DNA from: Limnohabitans sp. WS1
GTDB taxonomy: Bacteria; Pseudomonadota; Gammaproteobacteria; Burkholderiales; Burkholderiaceae_C
Assembly (NCBI RefSeq): GCF_003063265.1
Contig: NZ_NERU01000004.1
Span: forward strand, 62,001 to 126,000
DNA length: 64,000 nt
Direction of reading: 5' to 3'
The translations under genes and the position numbers were made by a program. The notes beneath the pieces are model-generated. The model saw only the letters and a list, made by a program, of their open reading frames with translations, searched no databases and had not been told where the DNA came from. Positions 5,511 to 49,609 of this stretch are shown one piece after another. Numbering within the stretch: the stretch's first letter is position 1; the number at the start of each line of letters is the position of its first letter.

Positions 5511-6842
5511 TTATCGTGGATCGCGGTCACGCGAACGCTGCAGGTCACGCGAACGCGTGTCCACAGCTCCATTGTTGCCACCGCTGGCTGTGGCAGGTAC
5601 AGCCGCTGCACTGTCCACTGCGGGAGGCGCGACACTGCTGACTTGTTGCATGATTTTGTCGAGTGGCAAATACAAGAGGTTGGAGCCTTGCTTGCTGTCC
5701 ACCAACACTTTGGTCACATTGCTGTAAATTTGCTGCATGGTGTCGGTGTACATGCGGTCGCGCATGACTTGTGGCGACTTTTGGTACTCCGGCAAGATCG
5801 TTCTGAAACGCTCGGCGTCACCTTCGGCTTGCGCCACGATCCGCTCACGGTAAGCATCGGCTTCTTCCTTCAGACGAGACGCTGCACCCACGGCACGCGG
5901 CACCACATCATTGGCATAAGCTTGGGCTTCGTTCTTGGCGCGTTCACGCTCCTGACCGGCTTTGAGCACATCGTCAAACGCAGCTTGAACCTGCTCGGGT
6001 GGACGCACACCACCTTGCTGCAAATTGATGCCCACCACCTCAATACCCACTTTGTAGCGGTCCAGGATGGTTTGCATTTTTTCACGGACACGCGGGGCGA
6101 TCTGGTCGCGTTCTTCGGCCAAGGCCGAATCCATCTTCATCTTGCCCACCACCTCACGCACGGCCGTCTCGGCGGACTGCACCACCGCTTCGGTCGGGTT
6201 GCGGCTTTCGAACAAATAGGCGCGGGCATCGTTCAAACGGTATTGCACCGCAAACTTGATCTCCACAATGTTCTCGTCTTCGGTCAACATCGCCGATTCA
6301 CGCAGGCCTGTGGCTTTGATGATGTTGTCGCGGCCAATGTCCACCGAGCGGATTTGGGTCACAAACACCAGCTCATGGCGCTGCACGGGATAAGGCATGC
6401 GCCAATTGAAACCCGCACCGACGGTGGAGTGGTACTTGCCGAATTGCGTGATCACCGCTTGCTGACCCTCTTGCACGATGAAGAATCCCGTGGCAAGCCA
6501 GACCAACACAGCAGCGGCCAAGATCACGCCCAAGCCGAGGTTTTTGAGAAACACGGGAATTCCAGGACCGCCTGAGCCTCCCGAACCGCCAGAGCCTTGG
6601 GGTTTTTGAGGGCCCCCTTTGCCTCCGAACAATTGACCTAACTTGCGGTTGAAATCACGCCAGAGTTCGTCAAGATCCGGTGGACCGCTTTGCTGTTGCT
6701 GCGGACCACGACTGGGTGGTTGCTGCCAAGCGTCTGGTTTGGAGCTGCTGGAAGGCGGCAGATCGCCTGTGGGCTTTTGCCCTGAATCGGTCGTCGATTT
6801 ATCGTCATCCCGACCCCATCGTGGGTCATTCAGATTGAACAT
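5511..6842 (-). CDS. hflK: HflK, SPFH-family modulator of FtsH protease
   Basis: Partner of HflC. A proline/glutamine/glycine-rich cytoplasmic N-terminus (residues about 10-100, with a GSGGSGG run) is followed by a transmembrane helix (GLGVILAAAVLVWLATG) and the SPFH domain. The C-terminus is rich in Arg and Asp. I start it at the ATG at 6842 (MFNLNDPRWGR), the conserved HflK N-terminus; the frame is open to 6899 without family support. Lies 113 nt downstream of hflX. Confidence 0.94.
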   Translation of the reverse strand: MFNLNDPRWGRDDDKSTTDSGQKPTGDLPPSSSSKPDAWQQPPSRGPQQQQSGPPDLDELWRDFNRKLGQLFGGKGGPQKPQGSGGSGGSGGPGIPVFLKNLGLGVILAAAVLVWLATGFFIVQEGQQAVITQFGKYHSTVGAGFNWRMPYPVQRHELVFVTQIRSVDIGRDNIIKATGLRESAMLTEDENIVEIKFAVQYRLNDARAYLFESRNPTEAVVQSAETAVREVVGKMKMDSALAEERDQIAPRVREKMQTILDRYKVGIEVVGINLQQGGVRPPEQVQAAFDDVLKAGQERERAKNEAQAYANDVVPRAVGAASRLKEEADAYRERIVAQAEGDAERFRTILPEYQKSPQVMRDRMYTDTMQQIYSNVTKVLVDSKQGSNLLYLPLDKIMQQVSSVAPPAVDSAAAVPATASGGNNGAVDTRSRDLQRSRDRDPR

Positions 6843-42128: not shown

Positions 42129-43289
42129 TCACGCCTTGCGAACATGCGCTTCCAGCCCGCGTCGCGGAGCCGGGCCAATCGCGGGGCCGTGACCCAGGCG
42201 GGTCCACATCTGCACCGTGTGCCCGCGTTCGGCAGCGCCCAACAACTGATGCACAGCCTGGTAGTGCGCCGCCTGCTCGGGGTATTCCTGCAAGGCCTGC
42301 GACAAGGGGTGCATCGACAAGCCCTGCGCCGTGGCGGCCAGTTGGGCCCGCACATAGGCACGCCCGGTTTGCAGCTGAGTGATGCGGTCGTTGCGCGCGG
42401 TGCTCAGCCAAAAATAAGCCGGGGTGCTGGCGATCGCGGCATTGAAACGCTCCAGCTGACCCTTGATTTCCGAGCTGTCCGGCGCTGAGGCTTGGGTGCG
42501 GTCAAACAAGCCCAAGGCATTCAAGGCGCGCACCATGGGCGAGTTCAGCGATATGCCGTCGCGGTGCTGGGCGATTTCCTTGGGGCCAATGCGCAGCACA
42601 TGGTAAGACTCCAGCAGCGTGCGCGGCGTGACCAACTCGGTGCGCCAGGCATCCATGGCGATTTGCGCATGGCGGGCCATGGCCGCATCTTCTCCCCGTG
42701 TAACAAGGCCCAATGTGACAGGCAACCCTTTAACGCTGTCGCGCACAACCTGCAAAACCGCGGCATCGGGCGTGCGCGCTTCGTACACGCCCTTGTGCGT
42801 GTGGCGATTGAAGACTTGCGCAAACAGCGGGTCGGGCCGCACCTGCGCATCGCGCACCAGGCGTATGCGGGCGGTGGGCCGGGTGTCGGGGGCCGTGGCG
42901 CTGAACTCGCCTTCGGGGAAAGGCGTGACCTCAGTGCGGTAGCCGCGCTGGCGGGCGGCCAGGTCCAGCACTTCAATGAAGGTGCCCTGGCTGATCACCA
43001 ACTGGCGCGACAGCGGATCGGTCTCGGGCAACAAACGCTTCATGTCCATGCGCAGCACGATGGTGCCCGGCATGTCCAAGTCCACCAGCCACGACTGCAG
43101 GTTGTGCGCGTGTGGGGCCAGCAAAGCGTGTGACAAGACCCAGCGGCGGATGTCGAGGTTATCGGCCGGAGGCTGCCAGGCCGCGATGGCCTCGGCGGGC
43201 ATGCTGCTGTCGCAAGCGGTCAAGCTGGTCACGGTGGCTGCGGCGATGAAGCCGCCGCCTGCAATGTGCAAAATTTGTCGTCTGTTCAT
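42129..43289 (-). CDS. Tat-exported Acg-family FMN-binding oxidoreductase
   Basis: A 386-residue nitroreductase-fold protein of the Acg type. The N-terminus MNRRQILHIAGGGFIAAATV has a twin-arginine motif, and LTAC (Cys26) follows as a probable lipobox, so it may be a Tat-exported lipoprotein. NRHTHKGVYEART and HPLSQALQEYPEQ are Acg-like core segments. Electron donor and substrate are unknown. It is divergent from a LysR regulator, which probably controls it. Confidence 0.78.
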   Translation of the reverse strand: MNRRQILHIAGGGFIAAATVTSLTACDSSMPAEAIAAWQPPADNLDIRRWVLSHALLAPHAHNLQSWLVDLDMPGTIVLRMDMKRLLPETDPLSRQLVISQGTFIEVLDLAARQRGYRTEVTPFPEGEFSATAPDTRPTARIRLVRDAQVRPDPLFAQVFNRHTHKGVYEARTPDAAVLQVVRDSVKGLPVTLGLVTRGEDAAMARHAQIAMDAWRTELVTPRTLLESYHVLRIGPKEIAQHRDGISLNSPMVRALNALGLFDRTQASAPDSSEIKGQLERFNAAIASTPAYFWLSTARNDRITQLQTGRAYVRAQLAATAQGLSMHPLSQALQEYPEQAAHYQAVHQLLGAAERGHTVQMWTRLGHGPAIGPAPRRGLEAHVRKA

Positions 43290-43356
43290 GGTGTTTCTCC
43301 AGAGGGTTCGTCAAGGGTTTGTGAGGGTTGAGGACGATTGTCTGGAGACGGTGGCT

Positions 43357-43373
43357 ATTGCACAATTGCATAA
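43357..43373. promoter_or_regulatory. possible LysR operator
   Basis: ATTGCACAATTGCATAA contains a T-N11-A motif (T43358, A43370) with half-sites TGCA-CAAT-TGCA. It lies in the 107-nt divergent spacer, 24 nt before the lysR-type start, where such regulators usually bind. Confidence 0.4.
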
Positions 43374-43396
43374 ATTCAAGCAACAGCCATTCATGA

Positions 43397-44332
43397 ATGA
43401 ATAAGTCCAACTTCAACTGGGCCCTGATCCAGTCCTTTTTGGCCGCCCTGGAACACGGCAGCCTCATGGGCGCAGCGCGCGCCACGGGCGTGAGCCAGTC
43501 CACCTTGGGGCGGCACATCGCCGAGCTGGAAAGCCAGCTGAACCTGCTGCTGTTTGAGCGCACCGGGCGCGGCCTGCAAGCCACCAGTCACGCGCTGGCA
43601 CTGGCCGATGCGGCACGCGCCATGCACGCGGGCGCAGCCGATTTTTCTCGGCTGGCCTCGGGGGCTGGGCAATCGGTGCAAGGCAGCGTGCGCCTGTCGG
43701 CCAGCCAGCCAGTGGCTTTTCATCTGCTGCCGCCCATCCTGACGCGCATGCGTCAAACCCTGCCTCAGGTCACGGTGGAGTTGGTGGTGAGCAACTCGGT
43801 CAGCAACTTGCTGCTGCGCGAAGCCGACATCGCCTTGCGCATGGTGCGGCCAGAACAAGGCAGCTTGGTGGCGCGGCAAATTGGCCAGGTGCGGCTGCGC
43901 GCCTGTGCCAGCAAGGACTACTTGCAACGCCGGGGCACCCCGCAAGTGCCCGAAAATTTGGCCGAACACGACCTGATCGCGGGCGACACGAACACCGACA
44001 TCCAGCAAGGCTTTCAAGCCATGGGCTACCCGGCCAGCGCACTGCATTTTGGGCTGCGCACCGACGATATGAATGTGCAATGGGCTGCCGTGCGGGCCGG
44101 GCTGGGCATCGGCTTCATGAGCGAGCACCAGATGCAAAGCGACGCCGCCATCAAGGCCGTCCTGCCCATGCTCACCCTGCCAACCCTGCCTGTTTGGCTC
44201 ACGGTGCACCGCGAACTGCGCACCAGCGCCCGCATCCGGGCTGTGTATGACTTTTTGGCGGATGAGGTGGGGCAGGCGCTGCAAAAACAGCCAGCCAACC
44301 CAACCCGCCTGAATGAGAGTGGCCCTCTCTGA
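43397..44332 (+). CDS. LysR-family transcriptional regulator
   Basis: A 311-residue LTTR. N-terminal winged HTH (WALIQSFLAALEHGSLMGAA, then VSQSTLGRHIAELE) at about 8-65, and an effector domain with SVRLSASQPVAFHLLPPIL. Divergent from the Acg-like oxidoreductase, the common layout for a regulator and its target. Effector unknown. Confidence 0.9.
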   Translation: MNKSNFNWALIQSFLAALEHGSLMGAARATGVSQSTLGRHIAELESQLNLLLFERTGRGLQATSHALALADAARAMHAGAADFSRLASGAGQSVQGSVRLSASQPVAFHLLPPILTRMRQTLPQVTVELVVSNSVSNLLLREADIALRMVRPEQGSLVARQIGQVRLRACASKDYLQRRGTPQVPENLAEHDLIAGDTNTDIQQGFQAMGYPASALHFGLRTDDMNVQWAAVRAGLGIGFMSEHQMQSDAAIKAVLPMLTLPTLPVWLTVHRELRTSARIRAVYDFLADEVGQALQKQPANPTRLNESGPL

Positions 44333-44413
44333 TTGACTCGGGCCAGATCGGTATGGATCCAATCCTGTGAAGTTTGATCAGTTCGAGCAGGAATGCCTCA
44401 GGTTGAAACCGCC

Positions 44414-44833
44414 TCAGGCCTGCCAGGGGTTCAACCAAACCAAACCCAAACCCTCGAAATGCCTTGTGTTGCGCGTTGCCAATCGCGCACCGTGCGCCAA
44501 GCAGGTGGCCGCAATTTGCGCGTCGGCCATCGCCAATGGCTGACCCAATTGCTCCCGCGCCGCCACCAAATCGGCATAAACCACCGCTGCGGGTAAATCA
44601 AAGGCCAACACACGGCCAGCAAAGTCTTCGGCCAGCATGGCCTCAAAGGCCTGCGTCAACTGCAACCGGCGAGCCCCAGATGGCAAACGGGCCAGTCCGT
44701 AGAGCAGCTCAGACACCACCACGCTGCACAGCCACAAATCCCGGTCCGACTGCGCATCCACCCAAGCCAGCACCGCCGGGTTGGGTACGGGCCGCATCAG
44801 CTCCGAGACCACATTCGTGTCCAGCACGATCAC
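44414..44833 (-). CDS. fitB: FitB/VapC-type PIN-domain toxin
   Basis: Predicted Mg-dependent endoribonuclease. The 139-residue PIN domain keeps its acidic residues: Asp5 (IVLDTNVVSELMR), Glu42 (VVVSELLYGL), Asp104 (PLAMADAQIAA), and RNTRHFEGLG near the end. GTG at 44833 is the start; it overlaps the antitoxin stop as GTGA, so toxin synthesis is tied to antitoxin translation. The frame open to 45172 is upstream noise. Intact. Confidence 0.92.
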   Translation of the reverse strand: MIVLDTNVVSELMRPVPNPAVLAWVDAQSDRDLWLCSVVVSELLYGLARLPSGARRLQLTQAFEAMLAEDFAGRVLAFDLPAAVVYADLVAAREQLGQPLAMADAQIAATCLAHGARLATRNTRHFEGLGLVWLNPWQA

Positions 44834-45096
44834 AGGCCGACCCCTGAAGCCTCGTTGCCAAAGTCCGCCGCACGGGCAGGCTCGCTGCGTTCTGGCGGTG
44901 GCAAGTCCGCACCGCCTATTGCCGCAAACCGGGCGTGCAACCGACTGCCCAAACCCTTGGCCGCAGCGGGCTGCGACAACACGCTGCGCAAGATGGTTCG
45001 CACCTCTTCCTCCATGGACCGGCCGTTGGCCGCTGCGGCCAAACGCAGCTTGTCCTTGATCTCGGTCTCGATGTTGCGGATGGTCAAGGTTGACAT
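44830..45096 (-). CDS. fitA: FitA-type ribbon-helix-helix antitoxin
   Basis: An 88-residue antitoxin. N-terminal RHH domain (MSTLTIRNIETEIKDKLRLA, GRSMEEEVRTILRSVL) for DNA binding and dimerisation, followed by a disordered C-terminus rich in Pro, Glu and Ala that would wrap the toxin. AGGAGGAG precedes the ATG by 5 nt. A consensus-like promoter lies about 20 nt further upstream. FitA/FitB complexes usually repress their own promoter. Confidence 0.92.
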   Translation of the reverse strand: MSTLTIRNIETEIKDKLRLAAAANGRSMEEEVRTILRSVLSQPAAAKGLGSRLHARFAAIGGADLPPPERSEPARAADFGNEASGVGL

Positions 45097-45123
45097 GGAG
45101 CTCCTCCTTTGGGTTTGACAGCA

Positions 45124-45151
45124 ATGCTAGCAATGAAAGCATTTTTGTCAA
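45124..45151 (-). promoter_or_regulatory. promoter of fitAB with candidate operator
   Basis: Minus strand TTGACA (45151-45146), 16-nt spacer, TAGCAT (45129-45124), placed about 28 nt before the fitA ATG. Around the -10 region CATTGC-TAG-CATTGC is a direct repeat and TGCT...AGCA an inverted one, candidate FitA binding half-sites. Confidence 0.65.
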
Positions 45152-45289
45152 GGCAGACACATCTATCGCCAAGTCAAATGCAGCATCAAAGCGTCTTCTT
45201 TTTAAAAATTTGAAAACTAAATAATAAATCTGACCTCTAGAATCGAATGAATACCCCCTTATTCATTTTCACGAGAGCGCTAGATTCAA

Positions 45290-48124
45290 ATGATTCATCC
45301 TCAAGAACAGCAGGACCTGCTCAACGACAGAGCCGAAGCCTTCAGCAAGGAGTTTGCCGACGCCAATTACGAAATGGGCCAAGGGCAAAACTTTGTGCGT
45401 GAGTTGTGCGGCGTGTATGGGCTGAACTACCTGCGCTCGGTGGACTTTGAACGGCGGGTGGCCAAAGACAGCGGAATCGGCAATTTGCGCATCGACGGCT
45501 TTTTCCCGGGCCTGCTCTTGGTGGAGATGAAATCCAAGGGCAAAGACCTGGCCGAAGCCTATGATCAGGCCAAGGGCTACATCCCCAAGCTCAAAAACAA
45601 AGAAGACCAGCCGCGCTAAATCCTGGTCAGCGACTTTCAAAACCTGCACCTGTACGACGAAACTGGCGAGCAAGCGCCCATCCAATTCAAGCTGGCCGAC
45701 TTCAAAAGCCACGTCAACGATTTGGACTTTTTGCTCGGCTACGAGCGCATCTACCAGGACCGCCAAGCCGCCGCCAGCATCGAAGCAGCCAGCCGACTGG
45801 GCAATCTGCACGATGCCATCAAGCAAACCGGCTACCGGGGCCAAGACCTGCAAACCCTGTTGGTGCGTTTGTTGTTTTGCCTGTTTGCCGACGACACCGC
45901 GCTGTTCAACAAAGAAGACGCTTTTAAGCTGGCCGTGCAAAACAGCAACAGCGCAGGCGACGATTTGGGCGGCAAACTGCAACGCATTTTTCGGCGACTG
46001 GACACCAACCCCCACACTTCGGCCAAGGACGGTGCCAGCACACAACGCACGGACGGGCAATACGCTTACCTGCTGGACTTTCCTTATGTGAACGGTGCCC
46101 TTTTTACCAAGCGCATCGAAGACCCCGACTTCGACGCTGCCTCGCGCCAGGCCCTGCTGGGCTGCTGCGCCATCGACTGGTCCGAGATCAGCCCTGACAT
46201 TTTTGGCACTTTGTTCCAGCACATCATGCATTGGGACGACGAAGAGGCCCAAGGCAAAACCAAAAAGCGCCGTGACTTTGGAGCCCACTACACCAGCGAG
46301 CGCAACATCCGCCGCGCCATCGATCCGCTGTTTTTGGAGGCCCTGCAAGCCGAGTTGGCGCTGTGCAAGGGCGACGCCAAAAAACTCAAGAACTTTGTCA
46401 CCAAACTGGCCAGCCTGCACTTTTTTGACCCCGCCTGCGGTTGTGGCAACTTTTTGGTGGTCACCTACCGCGAACTGCGCTGGCTGGAGCAGCAAACCCT
46501 GCTGGAGCTGAACAACACCCCCGGCGCACAGCAAACCATGCCCCTGTGCAACGTGCACCAGTTTCACGGCATCGAGATCGACCCCACCGCCGCCGAGATT
46601 GCCACCGTGGCCATGTGGCTGACCGACCACCAAATGAACCAACGCTGGGCCAGCGGCTACAAACGCATCCCGCTGGTGAGCAAAGCCAACATCCACCAAG
46701 GCAATGCTTTGCGATTCGACTGGAACGCCGTGATTGCGGCCTCCAAGCTCAGCTTCATCGTGGGCAATCCACCGTTTTTGGGCTACACCCAGCAAAGCGC
46801 CGAGCAAAAAGCCGACATGGCCCTGATCTTTGGCAAAACCCAGGGCACTGGCGTGCTGGACTACGTGACCGCCTGGTACGTCAAAGCCTTTGCGCTCATC
46901 AAACTTAACCCGCAGATCAAAGCCGCTTTTGTGTCCACCAACAGCATCACCCAAGGCGAACAGGTCTCGGTGCTGTGGCAACCGCTGTTTGACCAAGGTC
47001 TGCACATCCACTTTGCGCACCGCACATTCAAGTGGAGCAACGAAGGCTCGGGCGTGGCGGCGGTCCACTGCGTGATCGTGGGCTTTGGTCTGGACAAACC
47101 CAAAAAGTGTGATTTGTGGGACTACGGCCAGAAAATTGGTGGTGACGGGCAATTGCAAAAGACGCGGCGGATCAATGCGTATTTGGTGGATGCGCCGGCC
47201 ATTTTTCTGTCCAATCGGCGTGAACCACTGTGCAAGGTGTCGCCCATGAACAAAGGCAGCCAACCCACCGACGGCGGCCACCTGCTGCTGAGCGCCGATG
47301 ACGAACAGGCCATCCGCGACACCGACCCGATTGCGGCGCGCTATATCCGGCCCTTCTTGGGCGCGGAAGAATTTATCAACAACACGCCGCGCTTTTGCCT
47401 GTGGCTGGCGCACATGACCAACGCCGATTTGGCCGCATCGCCCGAATTGCAAAGACGCATCGCGGGCGTAAAAGCCATGCGCCTGGCCAGCCCCAAAGTA
47501 CCGACCCAAAAACTGGCCGCAGTGCCACATTTGTTTGGCGAAATTCGACAACCCAAAGAAGACTTCATTGCAATTCCCGAAGTTTCGTCAGAACGCCGAA
47601 CATTTATACCCATCGGTTTTTTGAGTGCAAATATTATTCCGAGCAACAAAATACAAACCATATCCAATGGAACGCTTTTCCAGTTTGGCGTTCTTTGCAG
47701 CACGATGCACAACGCCTGGATGCGTTACACCTGTGGACGTTTGAAAAGCGATTACAGCTACTCCAGCAGCATCGTCTACAACAACTACCCTTGGCCCACA
47801 CCCAGCCCGGCGCAGCAAGCCGCCATTGAAACTGCTGCCCAGGCGGTGCTCGACGCCCGCGCCCAGCACCCGGGCCAAAGCCTGGCCTGGCTGTACGACC
47901 CAGAGAACCTGCGCAAAAATAAAAGCCTGCAAGTCGCGCACGACGCGGTGGACGAAGCTGTGGACGATGCCTATGGCTACGAAGAAAGCAACGACGACAC
48001 CCACCGCGTCGCCTATTTGTTCAAGCTCTACGAAAAACTGGCCCTGGCCCCCATGCTGGAGCCCGCCGAGACGGCCAGCCCTGCCAAAAAGCCACGCAAA
48101 ACGACAAGCAGCAAAGCCCGCTAA
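45290..48124 (+). pseudogene. MmeI-like single-chain restriction-modification enzyme with in-frame stop
   Basis: Type IIL-type enzyme with N-terminal nuclease, helical linker, adenine methyltransferase and C-terminal target-recognition domain, 944 codons. Nuclease: Asp69-x9-Glu79-x-Lys81 (RIDGFFPGLLLVEMKSKG). Codon 110 is TAA (45617-45619, CGC TAA ATC); the same frame continues ILVSDFQNLHLYDETGEQ. A TAC would restore the expected PRYILVSDF. Methyltransferase: motif I FFDPACGCGNF (378-388), motif IV GNPPF (492-496). The downstream frame has only a TTG start (45722) before the methyltransferase; the first ATG is much later. A 109-residue nuclease fragment could be made alone. Upstream DNA is AT-rich, unlike its neighbours. 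Confidence 0.9.
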
Positions 48125-48203
48125 GTTCATGGAAAGGCGTCGCTCAATGGGTCGTGAATCCATGGATTGACATCATTCAGGCCCATTTTGAGGAGCGCAG
48201 GCC

Positions 48204-48438
48204 ATGGCATCTAGTCATTGTCAGAAACTTGCCCGAGGCGACACACCGAGCCCTTAAGCTGCGCGCTGCCCAGCGTGGCCGAAGCACCGAGGCCGAAATT
48301 AGCCTGATTTTGGAAAATGCCGTGGCCCCAAAAATCGGCTTGGGCTCAGCTTTGGTGGCGATTGGCCAACAACTGGGCGGCATCGAACTGGACTTGCCAC
48401 GGGACAAGCACACGGTCGAACCGGCGAGCTTTGAATGA
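48204..48438 (+). pseudogene. decayed FitA-type antitoxin without toxin
   Basis: An AGGAG stands 8 nt before ATG 48204, and MAS is the usual start of this antitoxin class, but that frame ends after 17 codons. One nucleotide inserted (or two lost) after the start gives LVIVRNLPEATHRALKLRAA, GRSTEAEISLILENAV and an antitoxin-like tail ending VEPASFE. The matching frame has only a GTG at 48154 with no ribosome site. No PIN toxin follows: REP repeats begin at 48441. It is probably a remnant of a second fitAB pair, cut off by repeat expansion or deletion. Confidence 0.65.
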
Positions 48439-48440
48439 CC

Positions 48441-48625
48441 ATCGCGGCGAGGGCGCCGCTCCTACAAAGAAAGGGGTGGTCTGCGGGGCGCTATCGCGGC
48501 GGGGGCGCCGCTCCTACAAAGAAAGGGGTGGTCTGCGGGGGGCTATCGCGGCGGGGGCGCCGCTCCTACAAAGAAAGGGGTGGTCTGCGGGGGGGTATCG
48601 CGGCGGGGGCGCCGCTCCTACAAAG
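48441..48625. repeat. four 52-bp direct repeats of a half-REPIN
   Basis: ATCGCGGCGGGGGCGCCGCT followed by CCTACAAAGAAAGGGGTGGT and a CTGCGGGG spacer, starting at 48441, 48493, 48545 and 48597, exactly 52 bp apart; the last copy is partial. Only one REP of the doublet is present, with the GTGGTCTGCG centre of the 71-bp element. The first copy has GAG where the others have GGG. The array covers the spacer between the decayed antitoxin and the isoaspartyl peptidase. Confidence 0.9.
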
Positions 48626-48643
48626 GTCAGATCGAGGGGCCGC

Positions 48644-49609
48644 TCAATCCCGATAAATCGAAATTTGCGGCGCGCCATCGCCTTGCACCACGCCCCGGTA
48701 CATGCCCTCGGTGTTGAAGGCCAACTGGTAGTGGCCATGCCGATCCAGCGCAATCACCCCGCCGCGCCCGCCTGTGGCGTCGAGTTTGTCGCGCACCGTG
48801 GCTTGGGTGGCCTGGGCCAGGCTAAAGCCACCGTAGGCCATGCGGGCGGCGATGTCGTGCGCCACCACGCCGCGCATGAAAAACTCGCCCGCACCGGTGG
48901 CCGACACCGCCGCCGTCGCATCGCAAGCGTAAGTGCCTGCGCCAATCAGGGGTGAGTCGCCCACGCGGCCAAACATCTTGTTGGTCATGCCGCCTGTCGA
49001 CGTGGCAGCGGCCAAGTGGCCGTGTGCATCCAGCGCCACCGCCCCCACGGTGCCAAATTTGCGGTCAATCGGTTCGGGCTGGCCCTGTGGGTGCTGCCCG
49101 TCGTGGTCCAGCATCACCTGCTGGTGCGCCAACGCGGCTTGCAGTTGTTGCCAGCGGTGCGCCGTGTGAAAGTATTCAGGCCCTTGCATGGCCAAGCCTT
49201 GCGACTGGGCAAAGGCTTCTGCCCCTTGGCCGATCAGCAGGACATGGCCGCTTTGCTGCATGACAGCCTGCGCCGCCAAAATCGGGTTGCGCACCGACAC
49301 CACACCCGCCACCGCACCGGCTTGGCCCGTGGCACCGTCCATGACGGCGGCGTCCATTTCGTTGCGACCCTCGTGGGTAAAGACCGAGCCCTTGCCTGCG
49401 TTGAACAAGGGGCAGTCTTCGAGCACGCTCACCGCTGCCACCACCGCATCAACAGCCGAAGCCCCCCGCAGCAGCAGTGACTGCCCTGCCCTCAAGGCCT
49501 GACCCAAGGCTTCGCGGTATTCCAGTTCTTGCGCCGGGCTCAGGTTGGCACGCGTCAAGGTGCCTGCACCGCCATGCACCAACAAAGTCACCGGGGCTGG
49601 CATGGTCAT
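48644..49609 (-). CDS. iaaA: isoaspartyl peptidase / plant-type L-asparaginase
   Basis: Ntn-hydrolase that cleaves isoaspartyl dipeptides and asparagine after self-cleavage into two subunits. The cleavage site is KFG-TVGAVALD, making Thr187 the nucleophile. TLLVHGGAGTL at the start and GAGEFFMRGVVAHDIA later are family segments. 321 residues from 49609 (or MPAP at 49603). It ends the peptide-use group, 4 nt after the ABC ATPase gene, and fits with dipeptide uptake by that transporter. Confidence 0.93.
   Translation of the reverse strand: MTMPAPVTLLVHGGAGTLTRANLSPAQELEYREALGQALRAGQSLLLRGASAVDAVVAAVSVLEDCPLFNAGKGSVFTHEGRNEMDAAVMDGATGQAGAVAGVVSVRNPILAAQAVMQQSGHVLLIGQGAEAFAQSQGLAMQGPEYFHTAHRWQQLQAALAHQQVMLDHDGQHPQGQPEPIDRKFGTVGAVALDAHGHLAAATSTGGMTNKMFGRVGDSPLIGAGTYACDATAAVSATGAGEFFMRGVVAHDIAARMAYGGFSLAQATQATVRDKLDATGGRGGVIALDRHGHYQLAFNTEGMYRGVVQGDGAPQISIYRD

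Follow-up and report, generated by a model that had tools for sequence, protein, structure and literature searches.

The gene at positions 45290–48124 (+) is, by its sequence, a Limnohabitans MmeI-family (Type IIL) restriction-modification (RM) gene. We consider it probably a recent nonsense allele in a decaying chromosomal defence locus, with restriction gone and methylation probably gone as well. Positions are those of the window, the 64,000-nucleotide stretch of Limnohabitans sp. WS1 DNA that was analysed, which lies on contig C34 of a 4.6 Mb genome in 48 contigs. The frame has 945 codons including the final stop and is open throughout except for a TAA at 45617–45619 (codon 110), and the nuclease residues Asp69, Glu79 and Lys81 lie ahead of this stop. 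Both observations had been made in an earlier sequence-only reading and are confirmed here.

The stop codon interrupts the nuclease domain

Using Pfam, five MmeI-family domains (nuclease, spacer, gamma-class methyltransferase, target recognition domain [TRD] and C-terminal bundle) were found in family order across the two pieces on either side of the stop, and the PADLOC model REase_MTase_IIG (PDLC03598) matches both pieces. The first piece, codons 1–109 (45290–45616, +), is the N-terminal part of an MmeI-type PD-(D/E)xK nuclease domain and matches Pfam MmeI_N (4.2e-10) over codons 14–108, corresponding to profile positions 2–107 of 181. The stop (45617–45619, +), placed by reading the frame and by alignment with orthologues, is followed in frame by the remainder of the nuclease domain, codons 111–155 (45620–45754, +), where the MmeI_N match resumes at profile positions 110–180. 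The frame then stays open through the helical spacer, the gamma-class m6A methyltransferase, the TRD and the C-terminal domain (45755–48121, +; Pfam MmeI_hel, MmeI_Mtase, MmeI_TRD and MmeI_C), with methyltransferase motif I starting at codon 380 and NPPF at codon 493. Compared on its own with the MmeI structure (PDB 5hr4), the second piece aligns over its residues 1–815, up to MmeI residue 908 (E = 2e-216), with codon 111 paired to MmeI residue 111; the 834-codon frame after the stop is thus not a product of chance.

Asp69, Glu79 and Lys81 correspond to the MmeI catalytic residues D70, E80 and K82. The alignment shows this triad in 84 of its 98 rows, the window row being one of the 84; in the remaining 14, no residue is aligned at these positions. 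The family motif I (DPACGCG) and motif IV (NPPF) are kept, as are the counterparts of MmeI His314 and Trp570, counted by hand in the 5hr4 alignment. A single uninterrupted chain with both activities, which is a trait of the family, is absent; because of the TAA at codon 110 we class the gene as a broken family allele rather than a working member.

The sequence-only reading had described the gene as split exactly between nuclease and methyltransferase. This does not hold, since MmeI_N matches on both sides of the stop and an excerpt of PMC4833311 sets the MmeI domain limits at 1–155 (nuclease), 156–300 (spacer), 301–620 (methyltransferase) and 621–825 (TRD). From the stop, about 45 codons remain to the nuclease domain's end, and the methyltransferase domain begins about 190 codons on. 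Just past the stop, an SDF motif has a Phe that does not vary among the 57 N-terminal domains aligned from relatives and an Asp that hardly does, and a Leu, a Gly and a Tyr are further nearly invariant residues beyond the stop (loci picked from the collected set, the window not being a row). Judged from these alignments, the stop cuts the nuclease fold short. A free, active nuclease fragment of 109 residues, one of the options offered earlier, is scarcely credible: the piece has Asp69, Glu79 and Lys81, but it would lack both the rest of MmeI_N, invariant residue included, and a recognition domain to aim cutting, and with the stop inside the nuclease domain it could hardly be a nuclease in its own right.

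By analogy with MmeI, the ancestral protein would have been one chain able to methylate a single strand of a short asymmetric site and to cleave the DNA some 20 bases from it. The TAA would halt translation after 109 residues with the nuclease fold incomplete, and since translation would end before that fold is finished, loss of restriction is strongly indicated. Phase variation was rejected: inspected by eye, the sequence around 45617 shows neither a long homopolymer nor a short repeat.

Orthologues and selection beyond the stop

The nearest orthologues are the loci L032 (89% protein identity), L034 (91% and 85% for its two pieces) and L033 (78%). All three have TAC, the tyrosine codon that had been predicted, at the position of the stop. 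Sister genomes without the stop had been named beforehand as grounds for treating the TAA as an error; the three orthologues are indeed free of it, but with a DNA identity to the window gene of 85% at best they are not sister strains, and so do not prove an error. Record searches, which may omit very near records, brought up no sister strain of this species. When 399 genomes drawn from the family were scanned, with at most two candidates scored per genome, 69 gave matches to the L032 protein (E <= 1e-30), and of the matches listed, the one in the window's genome alone was full-length and interrupted by a TAA.

If the TAA were recoded, or read through in a programmed or leaky manner, a little full-length enzyme would be made, and the frame is indeed open and constrained beyond the stop. 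However, a fresh stop alone accounts for that constraint, the stop is absent in 3/3 orthologues, and TAA is generally the tightest stop codon. The sequence lends this earlier suggestion no support, and we regard it as very improbable.

Selection after the stop was assessed with Nei–Gojobori counts over codons 111–944. The dN/dS values were 0.147 for window–L034, 0.147 for window–L032 and 0.167 for L032–L034, and became 0.096, 0.104 and 0.150, respectively, when codons 750–835, around the mosaic segment described below, were left out (748 codons). In the species trio of window, L032 and L034, the window branch has 31 nonsynonymous and 76 synonymous changes (ratio 0.125, with 0.110 for L032 and 0.136 for L034) and its neutral share is at most about 7%, while the lack of any further stop bounds neutral drift at about 0.034 substitutions per site. 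With L033 as the third species, the window branch stands at 0.129 versus 0.095 for L032 (p = 0.39) and at 0.145 versus 0.051 for L034 (p = 0.010). Of the four full-range comparisons, only this last, against L034, shows more amino-acid change on the window branch; the other three show no such excess (p = 0.39–0.77). These full-range counts take in the mosaic recognition segment. Without it, the excess in the L034/L033 comparison is gone (p = 0.21), the window branch lies at 0.060–0.077 with no window excess at p < 0.05, and at most 0–10% of the branch, depending on the comparison, can have been neutral.

As there is no clear relaxation of selection in the codons past the stop, either the lesion is recent or the sequence is in error. 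The constraint does not distinguish between recent death, a retained methyltransferase and a sequence error. A dead gene had been among the options listed earlier and is the one that we favour, with the qualification that the lesion is too recent for decay to have set in elsewhere in the frame.

The flanks, with genes lost or rearranged downstream

L034, from Limnohabitans LMRC04, has the same left flank as the window (window 42144–44281 and 44408 onward). Its RM gene has a 1-base deletion of its own near codon 432 (L034 ~5963–5970), in the methyltransferase domain; judged by sequence, this sister-species copy is broken independently, unless the assembly (cov_13) is wrong there.

Downstream, both L034 and L032 have the order RM gene, antitoxin (~77 codons), PIN-type toxin (~140 codons) and RbgA-like GTPase, the last two being what we take these genes to be from their resemblance; the GTPase gene of L032 is cut off by the contig end. 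The window has a FitA-like antitoxin remnant (48154–48438, +). Compared with L034 and L032, it contains one additional base directly behind the ATG, which is thereby out of frame, and its frame is open starting with GTG 48154. Of the toxin sequence only the first bases are present, and from 48441 a 52-bp tandem repeat in 3.6 copies (48441–48625, +) takes the place of the PIN toxin gene of the two relatives. In the window's genome, the toxin of the upstream pair comes closest to the lost one (42% identical), and the GTPase gene (95% identical) is found on contig C23. With the antitoxin shifted, the toxin missing and the GTPase gene on another contig, the locus has lost or rearranged genes downstream.

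Upstream, a second FitAB-type pair (44414–45096, −), divergent from the RM gene, is open (PIN toxin 44414–44830, antitoxin 44830–45096), and L034 has a similar pair at the matching place. An inverted repeat, AATGAATA-N6-TATTCATT, lies 22 bases 5' of the ATG (45246–45267, +). It occurs also in L032 (905–928) and was not found in L034; the element common to the window and L032 is possibly an operator. An Rfam search of 44000–49000 at gathering score found no RNA element, and ten scanned neighbouring frames gave no match to a restriction nuclease or translocase family.

In our preferred reading, a recent nonsense allele, the stop would belong to a wider loss of selfish and defence genes at the locus, seen in the absent toxin, the shifted antitoxin start and the L034 frameshift. 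Elsewhere the genome keeps a second MmeI-like gene, with an unbroken frame of 940 codons (L002, G000:C12:23293-25722, minus).

The deposited sequence may instead be wrong and the gene intact, which we think rather unlikely. The 944 codons contain a single lesion, no clear decay surrounds it, and three orthologues are without it. Against this, the neighbouring toxin–antitoxin pair has decayed independently, and single wrong bases seldom occur in genomes assembled from short reads, although neither point is decisive.

Possible expression of the methyltransferase half

The sequence-only reading had noted a weak downstream start, and the first in-frame ATG, GTG or TTG past the stop is indeed a TTG at 45722 (codon 145). 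A second TTG follows at 45731 (codon 148), both (45722–45733, +) lying just before the nuclease/spacer border. By eye, the 20 bases upstream of TTG 145 and TTG 148 hold no Shine–Dalgarno-like stretch, and a scan of the + strand at 45100–45900 gave no sigma-70-like promoter; leaderless or TTG initiation is beyond the reach of such consensus scans and cannot be judged from them. TTG 148 is kept in 3/3 orthologues and TTG 145 in 2/3, which says little, since these genes keep the codons while needing no such start. For a solitary m6A methyltransferase, then, the frame is complete and a good start was not seen. As the methyltransferase half has no obvious translation start, we lean, less firmly than for restriction, towards methylation being lost or reduced to traces.

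One point against our preferred explanation is that the methyltransferase half is well preserved, and a gene retained for its methyltransferase product would look identical. Initiation or reinitiation at TTG 145 or 148 would give a protein of ~800 residues, comprising spacer, methyltransferase and TRD, and the allele would be off for restriction and on for methylation as a solitary m6A methyltransferase. The two TTGs are well placed for this, just ahead of the border at 155, and in the excerpt of PMC4833311 the MmeI crystal model comprises residues 156–906 only, the nuclease being disordered. Motif I, NPPF and the His314 and Trp570 counterparts are kept, and dN/dS is preserved. There are also precedents. 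MmeI-like methyltransferases without a PD-ExK motif have been described from methylome data, AchA6III being one example in the part of PMC4752239 consulted. In addition, at L078 (3381–5987, from a Sulfuritalea metagenome-assembled genome) the nuclease region is missing in frame and the methyltransferase frame is open, which, provided the assembly is correct, makes it a natural MmeI-like protein without a nuclease.

On the other side are the missing Shine–Dalgarno-like stretch and the presence of the TTGs in orthologues that do not need them. Moreover, the split Type IIG gene of Haloferax volcanii (HVO_A0237 plus the nuclease fragment HVO_A0006) is credited with no m6A of its own in the text seen of PMC5867850, all m6A being assigned to another system. 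Published cases thus point both ways on whether a nuclease-less methyltransferase is active, AchA6III for and the split Haloferax gene against. We consider the solitary methyltransferase an unlikely explanation, albeit one to be taken seriously, and similarly would not expect a living methyltransferase from the window gene, with some reserve.

Lesions across the family

To place the stop among other lesions, 99 loci were read by hand, and 12 of them, the window included, were found to have a lesion other than truncation by a contig end (L001 [the window], L026, L030, L034, L060, L078, L079, L084, L092, L099, L106 and L108). This count leaves out L089 and L090, which are ambiguous, and L037, which has gene parts in swapped order. 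The set was made non-redundant by a rough script and is biased, having been found with the methyltransferase half as query; L031, at 24% identity, is a doubtful member. With 12 of 99 loci lesioned, broken copies are not rare in the family, bearing in mind that many of the loci come from metagenome assemblies. Among 30 inspected loci from the scan of 399 genomes (L117–L146), other lesions are scattered: a stop at 861 in L140, a frameshift near 740 in L143, two frameshifts in L144 (near 83 and 258) and a break near 730 in L145.

We also considered a family-wide bias towards loss of the nuclease. Four of the 12 lesions (L001, L060, L078 and L099) fall in the nuclease region, L060 also leaving the family before its C-terminus, which is no significant excess (p = 0.12), and the idea was rejected. 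Among plasmids, 362 records matched, every one at <60% identity, so no close relatives were found there. Separately, the two parts of the gene stand in reverse order on L037, a contig of 3,061 bp whose ends overlap; it may be a circular molecule or the result of misassembly.

A mosaic recognition domain

The target was predicted from MmeI contact positions (excerpts of PMC4833311 and PMC4081073), using rules made on other members of the family. The window contact residues are K723 and E738 (C at base 1), K642/Q645 (base 2 ambiguous), E751/N773 (C at base 3), K774/S810 (bulky 774, G at base 4) and K806/D808 (G at base 6), and the predicted site is C-N-C-G-A-G. L033 likewise has K806/D808, whereas L032 and L034 have E806/R808 and are therefore predicted to read C at base 6. 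The second copy L002 matches the window at MmeI positions 751, 752, 773, 774, 805, 806, 808 and 810, so that its residues for bases 3–6 are alike.

A mosaic segment lies at codons ~757–828 (47558–47773, +), recognised from segment identities with the orthologues. DNA identity between the window and L032/L034 is 85–93% in codons 11–155, 300–599, 600–756 and 829–930, falls to 50–53% in codons 757–804 and 74–75% in codons 805–828, and returns to 97–100% at codons 829–840. MmeI TRD-C comprises residues 746–825 in the excerpt of PMC4833311, and the mosaic segment thus lies close to this half of the recognition domain. The subsegment at codons 805–828 (47702–47773, +) is near-identical to other Limnohabitans MmeI-like genes, with 97% DNA identity to L103, L047 and L040, which have 52–66% in five other tested segments. 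All 24 of its 24 third positions match, versus 48–50% elsewhere (p = 2e-8 to 6e-8, uncorrected for having taken the best matches among all the genes and picked the segment after inspection). Since selection at the protein level alone would hardly match silent positions, we read the mosaic as recombination, and the segment as a likely natural specificity swap. Gene conversion from the genome's own L002 was rejected as the source, with only 62% DNA identity in codons 805–828 versus 97% for L103, L047 and L040. For codons 757–804, a donor was not found among the genes compared (best 65%, L050); here L032, L034 and L033 are themselves only 63–75% identical to one another, so exchange at this place may be recurrent.

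It is conceivable that the stop and the TRD-C swap are two steps of one process, the allele being a restriction-off, methylation-on intermediate in specificity switching. The nuclease would be silenced, a foreign TRD-C cassette (codons ~757–828) taken in, and the chromosome re-marked by a protein made from TTG 145/148 without being cut. If true, this would be a safe route for bifunctional RM enzymes to a new target. No link or time order was found between the two events, and we judge the scenario quite improbable.

As a freshly inactivated RM gene, the locus is ordinary, and the recognition swap adds some interest. A sharp exchange of ~215 bp, nearly coinciding with a structurally defined half-domain and with a predicted site change between close relatives, is natural evidence of how the MmeI family could diversify its targets. 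The allele itself is a clean natural case for testing whether methylation persists in an MmeI-type enzyme without its nuclease start.

Comparison with known systems

A literature search on Limnohabitans RM systems gave no paper on the subject, judged by title. MmeI itself (PDB 5hr4, TCCRAC 20/18; Type IIL/IIG) shares the five-domain order and the catalytic residues with the window gene, which differs from it in the stop within the nuclease domain and in its recognition residues, and therefore in its predicted site. NmeAIII (GCCGAG, as given in an excerpt of PMC3874165) agrees with the window prediction at bases 3–6, CGAG, whereas position 1 is predicted as C in the window and position 2 is ambiguous; the likeness is one of predicted site. 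The phase-variable Type IIG genes of Helicobacter, in the part of PMC3936762 consulted, resemble the window gene in having a frame-breaking lesion, but theirs are linked to homopolymer tracts, while the window lesion is a substitution outside repeats, which slippage could not switch. Systems of the AchA6III type have, like the window gene, a methyltransferase and TRD half without a working nuclease; according to the excerpted PMC4752239 a separate nuclease/translocase gene adjoins it, of which the window's ten scanned neighbour frames hold no counterpart. The Haloferax volcanii pair HVO_A0006 and HVO_A0237 is a Type IIG gene present, like that of the window, as a nuclease piece and a methyltransferase/TRD piece. 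In the text seen of PMC5867850 those pieces carry far-apart locus numbers on one plasmid, whereas the two pieces in the window are adjacent, with one codon between them.
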